A stretch of DNA of 64,000 bases from Subdoligranulum variabile (GTDB lineage Bacteria > Bacillota > Clostridia > Oscillospirales > Ruminococcaceae): positions 2,108,001 to 2,172,000 of the forward strand of contig NZ_CP102293.1 in assembly GCF_025152575.1 (NCBI RefSeq). Reading direction: 5' to 3'. Both the position numbers and the translations under genes were made by a program. Below, piece by piece: positions 5,764-19,512 of the stretch (position 1 is the stretch's first letter; the number at the start of each line of letters is the position of its first letter). The notes below the pieces were generated by a model. That model had not been told where the DNA came from. It ran no database searches and saw only the letters and a program-made list of their open reading frames with translations.

Positions 5764-7065
5764 TCAGACCAGACCCATCGCCGTGGGAAGCGCCAGGGAG
5801 ATGGCCGGAATGTAGGTGACCAGCAACAGCAGGATGATCTCCGCCACCACATAGGGGATCAGGGTGCGGATGACCTTTTCAATGGGCAGCTTGCTGATGC
5901 CGCAGGAGACGAACAGGACCGAGCCAACCGGCGGGGTCATGGTGCCCAGGCACATGTTGAAGGTCAGCACCACGCCGAACTGGACCAGGTTCATGCCCAG
6001 GCTGGTGACGATGGGCAGGAAGATGGGGGTGAAGATCAGGCAGGCGGGGGTGATGTCCAGGAAGGTGCCCACGATGAGCAGCACCACGTTCATGAGCAGC
6101 AGGATGACATACTTGTTGTCAGAGACAGACATGATGGCATTGCTGATGGCGTTGGGGATGCCGGTGTAGGCCATGACCCAGCTCATGGCGGAGGAAGCCG
6201 CGATGAGGAACAGGATGATGCCGCTGGTGTTGGCGCTGTCCAGCAGGATCTTCATCAGGGTCTTGAAGTCCACGCTGCGGTAGATCAGCGAGAGGATGGC
6301 GCAGTAGAGCACCGCGATGCCGGCGCCCTCGGTGGCGGTGAAGATGCCGCCGACGATACCGCCGATGACGATGACGATGAGCAGCAGGCTGGGCAGGGCA
6401 TCCAGGGTGATGCGGATGGCGTCCTTCATGGGGACCTTCTCGGTGACCGAGTAGTTATGCTTTTTGGCGTAGAAGAAGGCAATGACCATGGCCACCAGGC
6501 CCATGAGGATACCGGGCACATAGCCGGCCATGAACAGGGCGGAGATGGAAACGCCGCCCGCGATGCTGGAGTAGACGATGAAGGCGCTGGTCGGGGGGAT
6601 CAGCAGGCCGGTGGGAGCGGAAGCGATGTTGACGGCGGTGGAGAAGGCGGGATCATAGCCCTCTTCCTCCTCCATGGGGTTCAGGGTGCCGCCGATGGCC
6701 GCCGCAGCCGCCACGGCAGAGCCGGACAGGGCGCCGAAGAGCATGTTGCCCAGGACGTTGGTGTGGGCCAGGGCGCCGGGGATGCGGCCGACAATGAGCT
6801 TGGCGAAGTTGATGAGCCGCCGGGCGATGCCGCCGTTATTCATGATGTTGCCGGCCAGGATGAACAGGGGGATGGCCAGCAGGCTGAAGCTTTCCACGCC
6901 GCTGTTCATCTTCTGCATGATGATGAAGATGACCTGATCCCAGGGCAGGTTCATCAGGGTGGTGGCCAGGGAGGAGATGACGATACCCACCGAGATGGGC
7001 ACGCCCAGGAAGAGCAGGACGAAGAAAATCCCGAACAGAACGATAACGGAAAGTAAAATATTCAT
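5764..7065 (-). CDS. dctM: TRAP transporter large permease subunit (DctM family)
   Basis: Twelve-helix channel subunit of a tripartite ATP-independent periplasmic transporter, which imports organic acids or acidic sugars using the sodium or proton gradient. 433 residues, almost entirely hydrophobic, with family motifs FLGVPISVGI, IPLFILAGNIMN, GALSGSAVAAAAAIGG, IPPTSAFIVYS, FLDITPACLIFTPIFLPI and MTPPVGSVLFV. Start ATG at 7065 with GGAGG. Third TRAP gene, 12 bases after dctQ. The substrate cannot be read from the sequence. Confidence 0.94.
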   Translation of the reverse strand: MNILLSVIVLFGIFFVLLFLGVPISVGIVISSLATTLMNLPWDQVIFIIMQKMNSGVESFSLLAIPLFILAGNIMNNGGIARRLINFAKLIVGRIPGALAHTNVLGNMLFGALSGSAVAAAAAIGGTLNPMEEEEGYDPAFSTAVNIASAPTGLLIPPTSAFIVYSSIAGGVSISALFMAGYVPGILMGLVAMVIAFFYAKKHNYSVTEKVPMKDAIRITLDALPSLLLIVIVIGGIVGGIFTATEGAGIAVLYCAILSLIYRSVDFKTLMKILLDSANTSGIILFLIAASSAMSWVMAYTGIPNAISNAIMSVSDNKYVILLLMNVVLLIVGTFLDITPACLIFTPIFLPIVTSLGMNLVQFGVVLTFNMCLGTMTPPVGSVLFVSCGISKLPIEKVIRTLIPYVVAEIILLLLVTYIPAISLALPTAMGLV

Positions 7066-14564: not shown

Positions 14565-14849
14565 ATGATTCACTACAAGGATATACTCGTGGATACGGCC
14601 GCCCAGCGCGTCTGGCGGCAGGGGGAGGAGGTCCACATGACCCGGACCGAATACCGCCTGCTGCTGGTGCTGCTGGGGGGATCCGGACGGGTGTTCTCCC
14701 GGGAGGAACTGCTGTACCGGGTCTGGGGCGTCACGGTGCCCCTCCGCACCCGCACGGTGGACATCCACATTGCCCGGCTGCGCCGCAAGCTGGGACTGCG
14801 GGGCGAACTGCGGGCCGTTATGCGCAAGGGCTATGCTCTCAAGCGCTGA
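14565..14849 (+). CDS. Stand-alone winged-helix (OmpR/PhoB-type) DNA-binding protein
   Basis: 94 residues that are essentially one Trans_reg_C domain: an N-terminal beta strand (KDILVDTAAQRVWRQGEEVHMT), the TRTEYRLLLVLL helix, VFSREELLYRVWG, the recognition helix TRTVDIHIARLRRKLG, and the wing VMRKGYALKR. There is no receiver domain, and the upstream sequence is the end of the kinase gene and a promoter, so this is not a clipped response regulator. Likely a small transcription factor whose level, not phosphorylation, sets activity. Targets unknown; the next operon downstream is one possibility. Confidence 0.85.
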   Translation: MIHYKDILVDTAAQRVWRQGEEVHMTRTEYRLLLVLLGGSGRVFSREELLYRVWGVTVPLRTRTVDIHIARLRRKLGLRGELRAVMRKGYALKR

Positions 14850-14883: not shown

Positions 14884-14912
14884 TTGACAAGGCGTCGGAA
14901 ATCTGGTATCCT
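14884..14912 (+). promoter_or_regulatory. Strong promoter of the bis-His / CydDC-like operon
   Basis: TTGACA (14884-14889), 17-base spacer, TATCCT (14907-14912). Confidence 0.88.
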
Positions 14913-14919
14913 ATCGAGA

Positions 14920-14978
14920 GTTAGCTGTCGCTAATCTGCGGCGGCTTTTTTACGGCCTGGGTGTTAGCCTATACTAAC
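14920..14978 (+). promoter_or_regulatory. Pair of GTTAG-N6-CTAA operators
   Basis: Two inverted repeats of identical format: GTTAGCTGTCGCTAAT (14920-14935, immediately after the -10) and GTTAGCCTATACTAAC (14963-14978, just before the ribosome site). Centres are 43 bp apart, about four helical turns. Placement over the start site and leader suggests repression. The half-sites resemble those of DtxR/IdeR-type metal regulators, but the regulator is not in the window. Confidence 0.7.
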
Positions 14979-15010: not shown

Positions 15011-15343
15011 ATGAAAAAATGTCTTTCCTGGCTTCTGCTGGCCAGTTTTGTCCTCACCCTGCTGGTGCCGCTCACCGGCCTCATCGTTCACAAGCTGGCC
15101 AGCACGGTGTTTTTGCTGCTCTGTCTGGTCCATGTCATCCTGTACCGCAAAAAGCTGGGCGCCAAACGGTGGGCCCTGCTGGGCGGGATCCTGCTGGCTT
15201 TCGGGACGGGGGTGCTCAGCCTGGTCTTTGCGGAGCTGCCCCTGGTGCTGGCGCTGCACAAGGCGGTGTCCATTACCTGTGTGTTTTTCCTGGCCATTCA
15301 TATTTTTGTCTTTGCGTACCGCCGCCTGGGAAAGGAGAACTGA
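15011..15343 (+). CDS. Small four-helix membrane protein with two H-x13-H pairs (possible b-type haem protein, DUF4405-like)
   Basis: 110 residues, about four transmembrane helices (roughly 6-26, 29-45, 52-73, 80-103). Histidines at 27, 41, 83 and 97 form two pairs each 14 residues apart. In cytochrome-b-like small membrane proteins such spacing places haem ligands; here it is only a pattern, and no enzymatic test is implied. First gene of an operon with a CydDC-like ABC exporter, a YgbA-like protein and a DUF454 protein, and regulated by the operator pair just upstream. Ribosome site GAAAGAAAGG before ATG 15011. Confidence 0.7.
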   Translation: MKKCLSWLLLASFVLTLLVPLTGLIVHKLASTVFLLLCLVHVILYRKKLGAKRWALLGGILLAFGTGVLSLVFAELPLVLALHKAVSITCVFFLAIHIFVFAYRRLGKEN

Positions 15344-15346
15344 ACC

Positions 15347-17086
15347 ATGATGATCGACAAGCGTCTGCTTTCCGCCGTCCCGGAAAGCAAACGGTATATT
15401 GCCGCCAACGTGGCCCTGCAGTGGCTGGCCCTGGCCGCCAACATGGTGCTGGTCACGGCAGTCTGCCGTCTGCTGACCCGCCTGTGGGCGGGGACCGCGC
15501 TCTCCGGGGATCTGGCGGCCACGGCGGGGGTGGCCGTGGTGGCCCTGGCCGTGCGGTTCGCCTGCGCCGTGGGGGCCGCCCGGATGAGTTACCTTTCCAG
15601 CCGGTGGGTGAAGACCCGGCTGCGGGGCCTGCTTTACGAAAAGCTGCTCCGCCTGGGTACGGCCTACCGGGAGTCGGTCCAGACCAGTGAGGTGGTCCAG
15701 GTGGCCGTGGAAGGCGTGGACCAGCTGGAGATCTATTTCGGGCAGTACCTGCCCCAGTTTTTCTACGCCATGCTGGCGCCGCTGACCCTGTTTGCGGTGC
15801 TGGCGCCCATTGATCTGCCCTCGGCGGCGGTACTGCTCCTCTGTGTGCCGCTGATCCCGGCGTCCATTGCAGCGGTGCAGACCTGGGCCAAAAAGCTGCT
15901 GGGTCGTTACTGGGGCCAGTACACGGCGCTGGGGGATACCTTCCTGGAAAATCTGCAGGGGCTGACCACCCTCAAGATCTACGAGGCCGACGACTTCAAA
16001 AACCGGGAGATGAACGCCCAGGCGGAGGCCTTCCGCAAGATCACCATGCGGGTACTGACCATGCAGCTCAACTCCATCACCATCATGGACCTCATCGCCT
16101 ACGGCGGCGCGGCGGCCGGGATGATCCTGGCGGTGAGCCGGCTGGCGGCGGGGGCCATCAGCCTGCAGGGCTGCCTGATGATCCTGCTGCTGGCGGCGGA
16201 TTTCTTCCTGCCCATGCGCCTGTTGGGCAGCTTCTTCCATGTGGCCATGAACGGCATGGCCGCCAGCGAGAAGATCTTCCGGCTGCTGGATACGCCGGAA
16301 CCGGCCCGGGGAAACCGCCCCGCCCCGGCGGACTGTACCCTGGCCCTGGAAGCGGTGGATTTTGCCTTTGAGGAAGCCCGCCCCATCCTGAGGAAGGTTA
16401 CCATGCAATTTCCCAAAGGCAGCTTTACGGCGCTTGTGGGGGAATCTGGCTGCGGCAAATCCACCGTGGCGGCGCTGCTCACCGGCCGCCGTCATGGGCA
16501 GGCGGGGCGCATCACCCTGGGCGGTGTGCCGCTGGGGGAACTGGACGAGGCAAGCCTGGCCGCCACGGTGACCTATCTCTCCCACAACAGCTACCTCTTC
16601 AAGGGCACTGTGCGGGATAACCTGCGGATGGCCGCCCCCGATGCCGATGACGCCGCCCTCTGGAAGGTGCTGGAGCAGGTGCGGCTGGCGGACTTCCTGC
16701 GGGCCGAACAGGGGCTGGACACCCCGCTCCAGGAGAAGGCGTCCAACCTGTCGGGCGGGCAGTGCCAGCGGCTGGCCCTGGCCCGGGCGCTGCTCCACGA
16801 CACCCCGGTGTATATCTTTGACGAAGCCACCTCCAACATCGACGTGGAGAGTGAAAACGATATTATGGCGCTGATCCGCACGCTGGCCTGCCGCAAAACG
16901 GTGATCCTGATCTCCCACCGGCTGGCCAACGTCACCGGCGCCGACAAACTCTATCTGCTGGCGGAGGGCCGGGTGGCCGAAGCGGGCACCCACACCGACC
17001 TGCTGGCGGCACAGGGGGCCTATGCCCGGCTGTGGAATGCCCAGCAGCAGCTGGAACACTATACAGGACAGGAGGTATCGGCATGA
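15347..17086 (+). CDS. ABC exporter half-transporter, CydD-like
   Basis: 579 residues: six-helix membrane domain (1-315), then ATPase domain with Walker A GESGCGKST, Q-loop region YLSHNSYLFKGTV, signature LSGGQCQRLALARA, Walker B VYIFDEATS and H-loop ILISHR. The Q-loop has SHN in place of the usual Gln. CydDC exports cysteine and glutathione and is needed for cytochrome bd assembly in E. coli; no cydAB is visible here, so the substrate may be a thiol, haem or another reductant. Overlaps the next half-transporter by 4 bases (ATGA), so they form a heterodimer. Confidence 0.85.
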   Translation: MMIDKRLLSAVPESKRYIAANVALQWLALAANMVLVTAVCRLLTRLWAGTALSGDLAATAGVAVVALAVRFACAVGAARMSYLSSRWVKTRLRGLLYEKLLRLGTAYRESVQTSEVVQVAVEGVDQLEIYFGQYLPQFFYAMLAPLTLFAVLAPIDLPSAAVLLLCVPLIPASIAAVQTWAKKLLGRYWGQYTALGDTFLENLQGLTTLKIYEADDFKNREMNAQAEAFRKITMRVLTMQLNSITIMDLIAYGGAAAGMILAVSRLAAGAISLQGCLMILLLAADFFLPMRLLGSFFHVAMNGMAASEKIFRLLDTPEPARGNRPAPADCTLALEAVDFAFEEARPILRKVTMQFPKGSFTALVGESGCGKSTVAALLTGRRHGQAGRITLGGVPLGELDEASLAATVTYLSHNSYLFKGTVRDNLRMAAPDADDAALWKVLEQVRLADFLRAEQGLDTPLQEKASNLSGGQCQRLALARALLHDTPVYIFDEATSNIDVESENDIMALIRTLACRKTVILISHRLANVTGADKLYLLAEGRVAEAGTHTDLLAAQGAYARLWNAQQQLEHYTGQEVSA

Positions 17087-18738
17087 AGCGAAGCGGTTTT
17101 GCCGTGATGGCCCGACTCATCGGGCTGGTGCGGCCGCTGGCCGGGTATATGGCCCTGGCCGTAGCCATGGGTCTGGCGGGGCATCTCTGCGCCACGTGGA
17201 TTACGGTGCTCGGCGGGTTCGGCATCCTGCGGGTGCTGGGCCTGGAGGCACCGCTGCCCCTGACCGGGCTGTTCGTCGCGGCGGCGGTCATGGCGGTACT
17301 GCGGGCGGTGCTGCGCTACGGCGAGCAGGCCTGCAACCATTTTATTGCCTTCAAACTGCTGGCCCTGCTGCGGGACAAGGTGTTCCGCGCCCTGCGCCGT
17401 CTGGCCCCGGCCAAACTGGAGGGACGGGAAAAGGGGGACCTGATCGCCGTCATCACCTCGGACATCGAGCTGCTGGAGGTGTTCTACGCCCACACCATCT
17501 CCCCGGCGCTCATCGCGCTGCTCTTCAGCGGGCTGCTGACGGCATTCATCGGCAGCTACCATCCGCTGCTGGGGGCGCTGGCACTGGCCGCCTACGCCGT
17601 GGTGGGGCTGGCGGTGCCGCTGGCCGTCTCCCGGGCCAGCGGTCAGGAGGGGCTGCGGCTTCGCAACGAGGCGGGAGCGCTGGCAGCTTTTGTGCTGGAC
17701 AGCCTGCGGGGCCTGCCGGAAATTCTGCAATACGGTGCGGGTGCATCCCGGCTGCAGCAGATGCAGGACCGCACCGAGGCCCTCTCCCGCAGGGAGGCAC
17801 GGCTCAAGGCGGCGGCCGGGCGGGGAACTGCCGCCACCCAGCTGATCCTCTGGTGCTTTGACCTCGCGATGCTCTTTGCAGCGTCCGCCCTCTATCTGCG
17901 GGGCGCGGTGGATTTTGCCGGGGTGCTCCTTCCCACCCTGGCGCTCATGAGTTCCTTCGGCCCGGTGGTGGCACTGGCCAACCTGGGCGCCACCCTGCAG
18001 AATACCTTCGCCGCGGGCAACCGGGTGCTGGATATTCTGGAAGAAACGCCCCTGGTCCGGGACATCCACGGCCAGCCCGATGTGACCTTTGCCGGGGCGG
18101 GGGCGGAGGATGTGACCTTCGGCTACGGGGAGGAGACCATCCTGCAGAACGTGACGGTCCCCGTTCCCGCCGGCCGGACCATCGGCATTGTGGGCCGGTC
18201 GGGCAGCGGCAAATCCACCCTGCTCAAGCTGTTCCTGCGGTTCTGGCAGGTGGAACAGGGCCGGGTACAGCTGTCGGGTCGCAGCGTGGAGCAGATCAAT
18301 ACCCAAAATCTGCGCCGGATGCAGGCCCTCGTCACTCAGGAGACCCATCTCTTCCAGGATTCCATCCGCAACAATCTGCGGATCGCCAGGCAGGACGCCA
18401 CCGATGCGGAACTGGTGGCCGCCTGTAAAAAGGCATCCATCCATGACTTCATTGCGGCGCTGCCCCGGGGCTACGACACCCCCGTGGGGGAACTGGGGGA
18501 TACCCTGTCGGGCGGGGAACGGCAGCGGCTGGGCCTGGCCCGGGCCTTCCTGCACGATGCCCCCTTCCTGCTGCTGGACGAGCCCACCAGCAACCTGGAC
18601 AGCCTGAATGAAGCGGTCATCCTGCGGGCGCTGGCGGAGGAACACGGCAAACGCACGGTGGTGCTGGTCTCCCACCGGGTGTCCACCATGGGCATCGCCG
18701 ACACCGTCTATTCGGTGGAAAACGGGAGGGTGAGCTGA
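17083..18738 (+). CDS. ABC exporter half-transporter, CydC-like
   Basis: 551 residues, partner of the preceding gene. Membrane domain about 1-310, then ATPase domain with Walker A GRSGSGKST, Q-loop VTQETHLFQDSI, signature LSGGERQRLGLARA, Walker B FLLLDEPTS and VLVSHR, all intact. A heterodimer with one altered Q-loop (partner) and one canonical half is typical of asymmetric exporters. Start ATG 17083 lies inside the stop of the upstream gene; the frame's earlier start (17032) would overlap 55 bases and lacks a ribosome site. Confidence 0.87.
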   Translation: MKRSGFAVMARLIGLVRPLAGYMALAVAMGLAGHLCATWITVLGGFGILRVLGLEAPLPLTGLFVAAAVMAVLRAVLRYGEQACNHFIAFKLLALLRDKVFRALRRLAPAKLEGREKGDLIAVITSDIELLEVFYAHTISPALIALLFSGLLTAFIGSYHPLLGALALAAYAVVGLAVPLAVSRASGQEGLRLRNEAGALAAFVLDSLRGLPEILQYGAGASRLQQMQDRTEALSRREARLKAAAGRGTAATQLILWCFDLAMLFAASALYLRGAVDFAGVLLPTLALMSSFGPVVALANLGATLQNTFAAGNRVLDILEETPLVRDIHGQPDVTFAGAGAEDVTFGYGEETILQNVTVPVPAGRTIGIVGRSGSGKSTLLKLFLRFWQVEQGRVQLSGRSVEQINTQNLRRMQALVTQETHLFQDSIRNNLRIARQDATDAELVAACKKASIHDFIAALPRGYDTPVGELGDTLSGGERQRLGLARAFLHDAPFLLLDEPTSNLDSLNEAVILRALAEEHGKRTVVLVSHRVSTMGIADTVYSVENGRVS

Positions 18739-19073
18739 TGACCACCGCCCACAAGCGGGAGCGGGAAAAGCAGGTGGTCTCCTGCATGATCGCCCTGTAC
18801 TGCCGCCGCAAACATCATACAAAAACCGGGCTTTGCCCCGACTGCGCCGCGCTGGACGACTACGCCCGGCAGCGCAGCGACCGCTGCCCGTTCATGGAGA
18901 CCAAGACCTTCTGTTCCCACTGCACCGTGCACTGTTACCGAGCCGATATGCGGCAAAAGATCCGCGATGTCATGCGGTTTGCCGGTCCGCGGATGCTGCT
19001 GGTCCACCCGGTGCTGGCGGTGCGCCACCTGTTGGAATCCCATCACGAACGCAAGAAAAGGAGACTCCCATGA
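18738..19073 (+). CDS. YgbA-like cysteine-rich protein (nitrous oxide-stimulated promoter family)
   Basis: 111 residues, soluble, with cysteines at 16, 22, 33, 36, 50, 59, 62 and 66, including TGLCPDCAALDDYA and FCSHCTVHCYRADMR, which mark the YgbA_NO family. E. coli ygbA is controlled by the NO-sensing repressor NsrR, and the protein has been linked to survival under nitrosative stress; molecular function is unsettled. The cysteines could hold zinc or an Fe-S cluster. Overlaps the stop of the ABC gene by one base (TGATG) and the next gene by 4 bases, so it is translationally coupled in the operon. Confidence 0.85.
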   Translation: MTTAHKREREKQVVSCMIALYCRRKHHTKTGLCPDCAALDDYARQRSDRCPFMETKTFCSHCTVHCYRADMRQKIRDVMRFAGPRMLLVHPVLAVRHLLESHHERKKRRLP

Positions 19074-19465
19074 CCCTGCGCAAACTGTTGTATCTGGCCC
19101 TGGGCTTTCTGGGGCTGGCCCTGGGCGCTGTGGGGGCGGTACTGCCCCTGCTGCCCGCCTTTCCCTTTCTGCTGCTGGCGGCCTACGGTTTCGGCCGCGG
19201 CAGCGAGCGGCTGGACCGCTGGTTCAAAGGCACCCGGCTCTACCGGGATAACCTGGAGGACCTGGCCGCCGGCCGGGGACTGACCCGCCGCGCCAAGATC
19301 CGCATCATGGTCACCGTCACGCTGTTCATGGCGGCGGGATTCATCGCCATGGATGCCGTGGCGGTGGGACGCATCGTGCTGGCCTTTGTCTGGGTGGGAC
19401 ATGTGCTCTACTTCTTGTTCGGGGTGCGCACGCTGCCGGATGACCAGGAGAAAAACAACGAATAA
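19070..19465 (+). CDS. DUF454 (YbaN-family) inner membrane protein
   Basis: 131 residues with the DUF454 hallmarks: LYLALGFLGLALGAVGAVLPLLPAFPFLLLAAYGFGRGS at the N-terminus, then RLDRWFKGTRLYRDNLEDLAAGRGLTRRAKIRIM and two further helices. Family function is unknown; members often lie next to iron, haem or redox genes. Last gene of the operon, coupled by a 4-base ATGA overlap. Confidence 0.87.
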   Translation: MTLRKLLYLALGFLGLALGAVGAVLPLLPAFPFLLLAAYGFGRGSERLDRWFKGTRLYRDNLEDLAAGRGLTRRAKIRIMVTVTLFMAAGFIAMDAVAVGRIVLAFVWVGHVLYFLFGVRTLPDDQEKNNE

Positions 19466-19480
19466 TCGAATGAATCAAAG

Positions 19481-19512
19481 CAAGGGGCGGCCGGTCGGCC
19501 GCCCCTTGTCTG
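19481..19512 (+). terminator. Hairpin ending the CydDC-like operon
   Basis: Perfect 12-bp stem (19481-19492 with 19497-19508), four-base loop, followed by TCTGCTGT. The T tract is poor, but the stem lies 15 bases after the last stop. Confidence 0.6.

Follow-up and report, generated by a model that had tools for sequence, protein, structure and literature searches.

Background

CydDC is usually studied as a haem or thiol pump that serves cytochrome bd. Here we describe a five-gene operon of Subdoligranulum variabile that encodes a CydDC-like ATP-binding cassette (ABC) transporter together with a small tetra-histidine membrane protein (gene 1), a YgbA family protein and a DUF454 protein. It lies within a 64,000-nucleotide stretch of assembly GCF_025152575.1 (contig NZ_CP102293.1, positions 2,108,001-2,172,000, forward strand), hereafter the window. 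In the E. coli transporter, haem is ligated by H85 of CydC and H312 of CydD, the H85A substitution abolishes function, R81 and R136 of CydC hold the haem propionates, and the transporter delivers haem to the periplasm, according to passages of PMC10374445. The S. variabile transporter resembles the CydDC of E. coli and of the Bacillota in being a heterodimeric ABC exporter that scores above the CydC model cut-off and keeps both axial histidines. It differs in forming a separate clade, in replacing R81 and R136 with Q and H, in its predicted iron-type operators, and in its partners YgbA and DUF454; moreover, no cytochrome bd was found in 119 genomes of the host family.

The other two conserved partners are uncharacterized families. 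According to passages of PMC2884951, NsrR represses ygbA in Salmonella, where an nsrR mutation raises its expression 31.8-fold and no function is known for the gene. The enterobacterial protein and the one described here share a Pfam family, but the latter is mostly tied to CydDC and DUF454 and to iron-type operators. DUF454 is induced by iron starvation in Avibacterium (an excerpt of PMC7970244) and co-occurs with type 11 secretion genes (118/1,111), the corresponding figure for haem oxygenase being 137 (an excerpt of PMC12282271).

Isd/Shp systems of Gram-positive bacteria share iron-type control with the locus and, in some of its relatives, a direct Shp/NEAT/IsdE linkage, although S. variabile itself lacks IsdE. 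We know of no Isd system that includes CydDC, YgbA or DUF454. HsmA of C. difficile (passages of PMC12670364) is a proposed membrane store of haem, a role that gene 1 may share; it is haem-induced, whereas gene 1 has iron-type operators, and the two are set side by side here without sequence comparison. LhaSTA is an iron-regulated energy-coupling factor (ECF) haem transporter of Staphylococcus lugdunensis (passages of PMC7299338). An ECF transporter of S. variabile likewise has the shared operator upstream, but its S component belongs to the MptD/Trep_Strep family, whose relatedness to LhaS was not compared; it is a possible haem importer by analogy. We found no open-licence paper in PMC that joins CydDC, YgbA and DUF454, which does not show that none exists.

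We propose, with a probability of roughly 0.6, that the operon is an iron-starvation-induced module for the use of haem iron in an anaerobe seemingly unable to make haem. What is new is the iron-type switch and the linkage to haem capture; the CydDC-type transporter itself is of a known kind.

Results

A conserved four-gene unit

All five reading frames are uninterrupted, each with an intact start and stop codon, and a 3-base gap after gene 1 is followed by overlaps of 4, 1 and 4 bases, confirming the tight coupling claimed in the original prediction (Table 1). Profile searches against Pfam and NCBIfam bore out its YgbA assignment for gene 4 (YgbA_NO, PF11756, 156 bits) and its DUF454 assignment for gene 5 (PF04304, 109.9 bits). 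The proposed CydDC-like exporter stood for the CydC half, which exceeds the cut-off of TIGR02868 (337.4 bits against 329.05); the best model of the CydD half is TIGR02857, at 390.8 bits, below the cut-off of 435.

Table 1. Positions of the operon genes and of predicted regulatory features in the window
Feature	Position	Strand	Remarks
Sigma-70-like promoter, TTGACA-17-TATCCT, TG before second hexamer	14884..14912	+	10/12 consensus bases; shuffles mean 0.0
Putative operator 1, GTTAGCTGTCGCTAAT	14920..14935		7 bases beyond the -10 hexamer, close to where transcription probably starts
Putative operator 2, GTTAGCCTATACTAAC, perfect 5-6-5 palindrome	14963..14978		In leader
Gene 1, four-helix membrane protein with four invariant His, 110 amino acids	15011..15343	+	Optional
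Gene 2, CydD-like half-transporter, 579 amino acids	15347..17086	+	Retains His equivalent to E. coli CydD H312
Gene 3, CydC-like half-transporter, 551 amino acids	17083..18738	+	Keeps His equivalent to E. coli CydC H85; Q/H replace R81/R136
Gene 4, YgbA family protein, 111 amino acids	18738..19073	+	Seven Cys and three His conserved
Gene 5, DUF454 (YbaN-like) membrane protein, 131 amino acids	19070..19465	+	
Possible terminator, 12-pair G+C-rich stem-loop after operon	19481..19508		Tool reports minus strand only

The conserved unit consists of the cydD-like, cydC-like, ygbA and DUF454 genes. One genome for each of 84,980 species was scanned with the window's own YgbA, a query that biases the resulting set towards close relatives; 82 relatives were found and 80 loci kept. 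Neighbouring genes were identified by named queries, all-against-all BLAST having been dropped on account of antisense frames in G+C-rich DNA. A gene-neighbourhood check, which the original prediction had recommended, found CydD, CydC and DUF454 all near YgbA in 57/80 loci. Another 11 loci were partial: five are cut by a contig end (L021, L026, L038, L055, L074), L058 carries fused genes, L090 has an unrelated ABC gene on the opposite strand, and four are others. In the remaining 12 the labelling script reported no CydDC, but as it allows one label per reading frame it undercounts fused genes (L058, L083), and L083, one of the 12, is a fusion that it missed. Hosts named in the sequence titles include Oscillospiraceae, Lachnospiraceae, Erysipelotrichaceae and coriobacteria. 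Locus L020, at the end of a contig, has ygbA, DUF454 and operators next to feo and DtxR genes. In Alistipes, ygbA is solitary and without CydDC. Solitary ygbA genes, with neither CydDC nor DUF454 detected nearby, were also observed at L091, L092, L093, L094 and L087 (Bacteroidales, Longilinea and a Neomarinimicrobiota bin).

A second, evenly drawn sample comprised 119 genomes of the host's own family, with that of S. variabile (3,244,954 bases, one contig) labelled G000. YgbA occurs in 17 of these genomes, a CydD relative (counted at an expectation value, E, of up to 1e-90) in 21, DUF454 in 26 and gene 1 in three. YgbA and the CydD relative occur together in 16 (Fisher p 1e-14, uncorrected for kinship) and lie no more than 6 kilobases apart in 15 of those 16, which excludes for the four genes the chance co-occurrence in one strain that had been named as a risk to the original prediction.

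Gene fusions occur within the unit. CydD and CydC are fused at L058, L064, L065 and L083, and YgbA and DUF454 domains stand in one protein in 78 among the 120 matches listed of 649 to a query that is itself such a fusion. At L075 and L086 the module comes after feoAB, at L021 it lies two genes downstream of feoB, and at L031 an HMA domain gene is linked to it. In YgbA, C22, H26, C33, C36, C50, C59, C62, H65, C66 and H97 are each conserved in more than 90% of the 80 sequences, a pattern that suggests binding of a metal or of haem.

The CydDC-like transporter

Both half-transporters retain the Walker A, signature, Walker B and H-loop motifs, which suggests that each of the two ATP sites is functional; identity to E. 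coli CydDC is about 25%. For comparison, 20 stretches around cydA in the Bacillota supplied 13 cytochrome-bd-linked CydD and 13 CydC proteins, and 15 other ABC exporters from the same loci served as controls. The first axial ligand, H85 of CydC, is invariant in the module (63/63) and in the canonical set (13/13). The second, H312 of CydD, is invariant in both as well (61/61 and 13/13) and is found in 0/15 control exporters, making it the telling residue. Two aromatic positions of CydD are constrained as well, with W at 195 in 60/61 module proteins and F at 311 in 61/61, and R77 of CydC is retained in 59/63.

In FastTree phylogenies the module CydD proteins form one clade (61/61, support 0.943), as do the CydC proteins (63/63, support 0.998), and the canonical clades, E. 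coli included, stand apart from them (14/14 in each, supports 0.996 and 0.998). On these alignments the transporter is a clade of its own beside the cytochrome-bd-linked CydDC, that is, a cytochrome-bd-independent subfamily. Searches of solved structures with the transporter returned eukaryotic ABCB-type chains first, with E. coli CydD lower and CydC absent from the best 60; long chains containing two halves can score twice, and we therefore relied on the trees instead.

A predicted iron-starvation regulon and its putative operators

The two putative operators downstream of the promoter both match GTTAG-N6-CTAA(C/T). The 14-base core pattern, TTAG-N6-CTAA, occurs at 15 places in the S. variabile genome, and 10 of these fall at six promoter regions: three sites belong to the feoA-feoB operon, whose last gene encodes a DtxR-family protein, two to the operon under study, two lie upstream of a DUF3793-flavodoxin pair, and single sites lie upstream of pflB (L009 4309-6778), directly upstream of the MptD-type ECF transporter (C1:2452996; L012 4997-7756), and upstream of a NifU-like/GGGtGRT gene pair. 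The other five comprise one site downstream of pflA, three in coding frames and one intergenic site without the flanking G. The promoter of feoA is built like that of the operon, TTGACA-17-TATAGT with an operator 6 bases further on. Rubrerythrin was rejected as a member of the regulon; the sites nearest to its gene lie downstream of it and upstream of feoA.

The DtxR-family protein encoded in the feo operon matches PF01325 and PF02742. Since the DtxR box of the literature, TTAGGTTAGSCTAACCTAA, contains TTAG-N6-CTAA, and since a DtxR-family gene stands in the feo operon, its product is the likely repressor of the operon through the two predicted operators. The operon thus likely belongs to a predicted iron-starvation regulon with feoAB and other iron and redox genes.

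Operator-like sites recur among relatives. Of 59 related cydD genes for which sufficient upstream sequence was available, 30 have a site between -400 and +20, compared with 0/59 and 1/59 for two control patterns, and over 1,240,402 bases of related loci 92 sites were counted against 17 and 13 for the controls. The sites are often paired. Positions that played no part in site selection are nevertheless constrained across 54 sites from 31 sources (30 loci and the window): G precedes the core in 93% and C or T follows it in 100%, with C at +4 in 69% and G or A at +9 in 91%. Among the 11 non-coriobacterial cydD genes that lack a site, five have sites before a co-directional gene that precedes cydD, namely ZIP at L024 and L057, feoA-feoB at L075 and L086, and a small regulator at L072. 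Of the coriobacterial loci, L076 and L083 have a site. Allowing one mismatch turned up operators in 6 of the 29 upstream regions without a site (2.85 expected), which is not convincing.

The iron-type operator upstream of pflB suggests a shift to pyruvate formate-lyase under iron shortage, and a perfect GTTAG-N6-CTAAC palindrome is located downstream of pflA (L009 3380-3393; C1:597379), where it has no clear target gene.

Haem physiology and linked haem capture

The original prediction had remarked that no cytochrome bd genes lie in the window, and this holds for the whole genome and for the family sample too: cydA (PF01654) was found in 0/119 family genomes, while the same search was positive in 10/14 control genomes. 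Ferrochelatase was likewise found in 0/119 (8/14 controls positive), a search that did not cover the siroheme (Ahb) route, and the host appears unable to make haem.

In several relatives the module adjoins genes for haem capture. At L058, a YgbA-DUF454 fusion and a CydDC fusion directly follow genes for IsdE (TIGR03659, 388.1 bits against a cut-off of 298.65), a FecCD permease and an ATPase. L085 reads IsdE, permease, ATPase, ygbA, DUF454, cydD and cydC in one direction (IsdE 381 bits), and at L080 the IsdE, permease and ATPase genes are followed by two operators and then the module (IsdE 378 bits). IsdE relatives were present at 3/80 YgbA loci and in 7/119 family genomes. In genome G099 (L136), NEAT, Shp, IsdE, permease and ATPase genes together with ygbA face DUF454-cydC-cydD, and sites precede the NEAT gene, DUF454 and cydD. 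In G060, G025 and G076 (L137-L139) the last gene of the IsdE cluster encodes DUF454, so that DUF454 is in or beside the cluster in 4/7 genomes with IsdE; it does not end the clusters of G069, G081 and G049, the last of which is cut by a contig end. Nine candidate surface proteins from IsdE clusters were scanned, and seven matched Shp or NEAT over the cut-off, one fell just below it and one had no match at all. Sites occur shortly upstream of the IsdE clusters at L136, L137, L140 and L141 and about 0.9 kilobases upstream of isdE at L139 and L142; none was found in the L138 stretch examined. At L137, a 74-amino-acid protein with a DtxR-type DNA-binding domain, in which no metal-binding domain was found, is encoded between the IsdE-type ATPase and DUF454 (6137-6361).

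Gene 1 is an optional, tetra-histidine membrane protein

The four-helix protein with two H-x13-H pairs that the original prediction described was recovered. The pairs are H27/H41 and H83/H97, all four histidines are invariant in 24 aligned sequences, and the structure model has four helices at a mean confidence (pLDDT) of 70.5. Its proposed likeness to DUF4405 did not survive, as no DUF4405 profile matched at E up to 0.1, although paired histidines in a small helix bundle do fit that family. At this threshold no family exceeded its cut-off, Ferric_reduct reaching 19 bits (cut-off 28) and DUF6163 13.6, also below cut-off. The label 'heme transporter CcmB' on a few homologues was set aside as automatic; three that were scanned matched no NCBIfam model.

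Gene 1 was also rejected as a core component. It occurs at 1/80 YgbA loci, in 3/119 family genomes and in 2/391 class genomes, of which one is S. variabile itself and the other a partial match with an in-frame stop; for this gene, then, chance association with the unit largely holds. Sequence collections contain over 2,000 homologues, though these are rare in the sampled genomes. YgbA and CydD accompany gene 1 in each of the three family genomes that have it (p 0.002 and 0.005, for just three cases). A perfect operator lies immediately before the start codon of a lone homologue in G069 (L099), and a one-mismatch site precedes the homologue in G031, so that gene 1 is probably co-regulated with the module though not co-located. 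It is a probable b-haem protein, and probably acts as a lineage-specific membrane haem-binding relay or a ferric reductase.

Discussion

Our proposal can be set out as a sequence of steps. When iron is plentiful, the DtxR-family repressor would occupy both operators and block the promoter; under iron starvation, the CydD/CydC-type transporter, YgbA and DUF454 would be made together. The invariant residues suggest that the transporter binds haem or a related tetrapyrrole between His85 of CydC and His312 of CydD, as E. coli CydDC does. YgbA, a soluble protein rich in Cys and His, and DUF454, a small membrane protein, may act as one unit because they occur fused, and this unit would handle haem or its iron at the inner membrane face. 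Haem would enter by another route, which in some relatives could be the Shp/IsdE importer; iron would then be removed inside, and the CydDC-like pump would expel spent porphyrin or excess haem. Outward transport is the weakest step, about evenly balanced against import, and is favoured by the direction of E. coli CydDC and by the dedicated importer that stands beside the module at four loci.

A bolder version, which we regard as tentative and rather doubtful, is that YgbA and DUF454 extract haem iron independently of O2 and without known haem-degrading enzymes, and that this CydDC subfamily, its propionate pocket rebuilt, exports the iron-free porphyrin. If this were true, YgbA and DUF454 would gain a function, and a CydDC-type pump would take on a new role.

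Several observations weigh against the haem-iron proposal. The propionate contacts are altered throughout: R81 of CydC is replaced by Q in 63/63 module proteins (canonical R 13/13) and R136 by H in 63/63 (canonical R 12/13), so the ligand may differ from haem b; the changes may fit another tetrapyrrole, without proving it. Control ABC exporters have His at position 85 of CydC in 8/15 and at position 136 in 13/15, which leaves both columns weak alone. A ZIP transporter stands within the unit at two loci (L024, L057) and would suit another metal. IsdE is absent from the S. variabile genome, so that the haem link rests on relatives, and the absence of ferrochelatase would still allow haem to be made through the siroheme (Ahb) pathway. 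Among the 119 family genomes no HutW/ChuW-type anaerobic haem-degrading enzyme scored over its cut-off (best match to TIGR04107 204.8 bits, cut-off 400), leaving the iron-release step without a known enzyme; we infer that the sub-threshold matches are HemW/HemZ-type relatives. As to the operators, the pattern count in the S. variabile genome (15) is not above that of a reversed control (30), so it is the placement of the sites that supports them, and 29/59 cydD genes have no site in the tested interval, 18 of these 29 being coriobacterial.

The strongest rival, though an unlikely one, is that the same haem-iron module uses its CydDC-like pump inward, as IrtAB and YbtPQ do with siderophores, making it a haem importer from which YgbA and DUF454 receive haem inside. 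Control by iron starvation suits uptake, both haem ligands are kept, and IsdE is missing from S. variabile and from 16/21 family genomes that carry a CydD relative, which would need another haem route. Yet a second importer would be redundant at L058, L080, L085 and L136, where an IsdE-type importer adjoins the module; the ECF transporter of the predicted regulon could be the importer in S. variabile; and the close relative CydDC is described in passages of PMC10374445 as releasing haem to the periplasm.

An improbable alternative is that the transporter exports a thiol, such as cysteine, which would reduce extracellular ferric iron and so feed FeoAB, with gene 1 as a ferric reductase. The TIGR names annotate CydDC also as a thiol exporter, the module follows feo genes at the three loci described above, and gene 1 has its weak Ferric_reduct match; the linkage to IsdE, Shp and NEAT and the invariant haem-ligand histidines of both subunits would, however, be left unexplained, and gene 1 is missing at most loci.

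Less probable still is a metal or metallophore transporter without specificity for haem, carrying for example zinc, manganese or an iron chelate and controlled by a general metal repressor. Besides the linked ZIP and HMA domain genes, it can draw on the DtxR-family protein, which scores best against MntR models (87.7 bits, below the cut-off of 153). Against it, the predicted regulon members in the S. variabile genome are iron and redox genes, IsdE is haem-specific by model name, and CydDC-type haem ligands are present.

The original prediction had offered a role in haem, thiol or nitrosative/oxidative stress, of which the haem part is upheld by the invariant axial histidines and the IsdE/Shp/NEAT linkage. 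Nitrosative or oxidative stress as the main role is very improbable and is kept only as a weak rival: its support comes down to the YgbA family name, the NsrR control of ygbA in Salmonella (passages of PMC2884951) and a rubrerythrin gene just before the feo operators, which lie downstream of that gene, while the operators match the predicted iron regulon and the identified linked genes include none for nitric oxide detoxification, NsrR sites not having been searched.

A sister clade with the haem ligands of CydDC, under iron-type operators and in some relatives next to genes for haem capture, occurs in anaerobes in which neither cytochrome bd nor ferrochelatase was detected, and the haem-iron proposal would tie YgbA and DUF454, two uncharacterized families, to haem iron in gut bacteria. 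We know of no explanation for the release of haem iron in strict anaerobes that lack a ChuW/HutW-type enzyme, and the module is a concrete candidate for that step.

Other observations

At the coriobacterial loci L033 and L038, FeoB-associated/HMA-like, AhpC and thioredoxin-reductase-like genes were read by eye downstream of the module. In the window, a frame at 14565-14849, directly upstream of the operon promoter, encodes a 94-amino-acid PhoB-type DNA-binding domain (Trans_reg_C, 67.3 bits) without a receiver domain, and the genes before it resemble, by eye, a response regulator and a sensor kinase.

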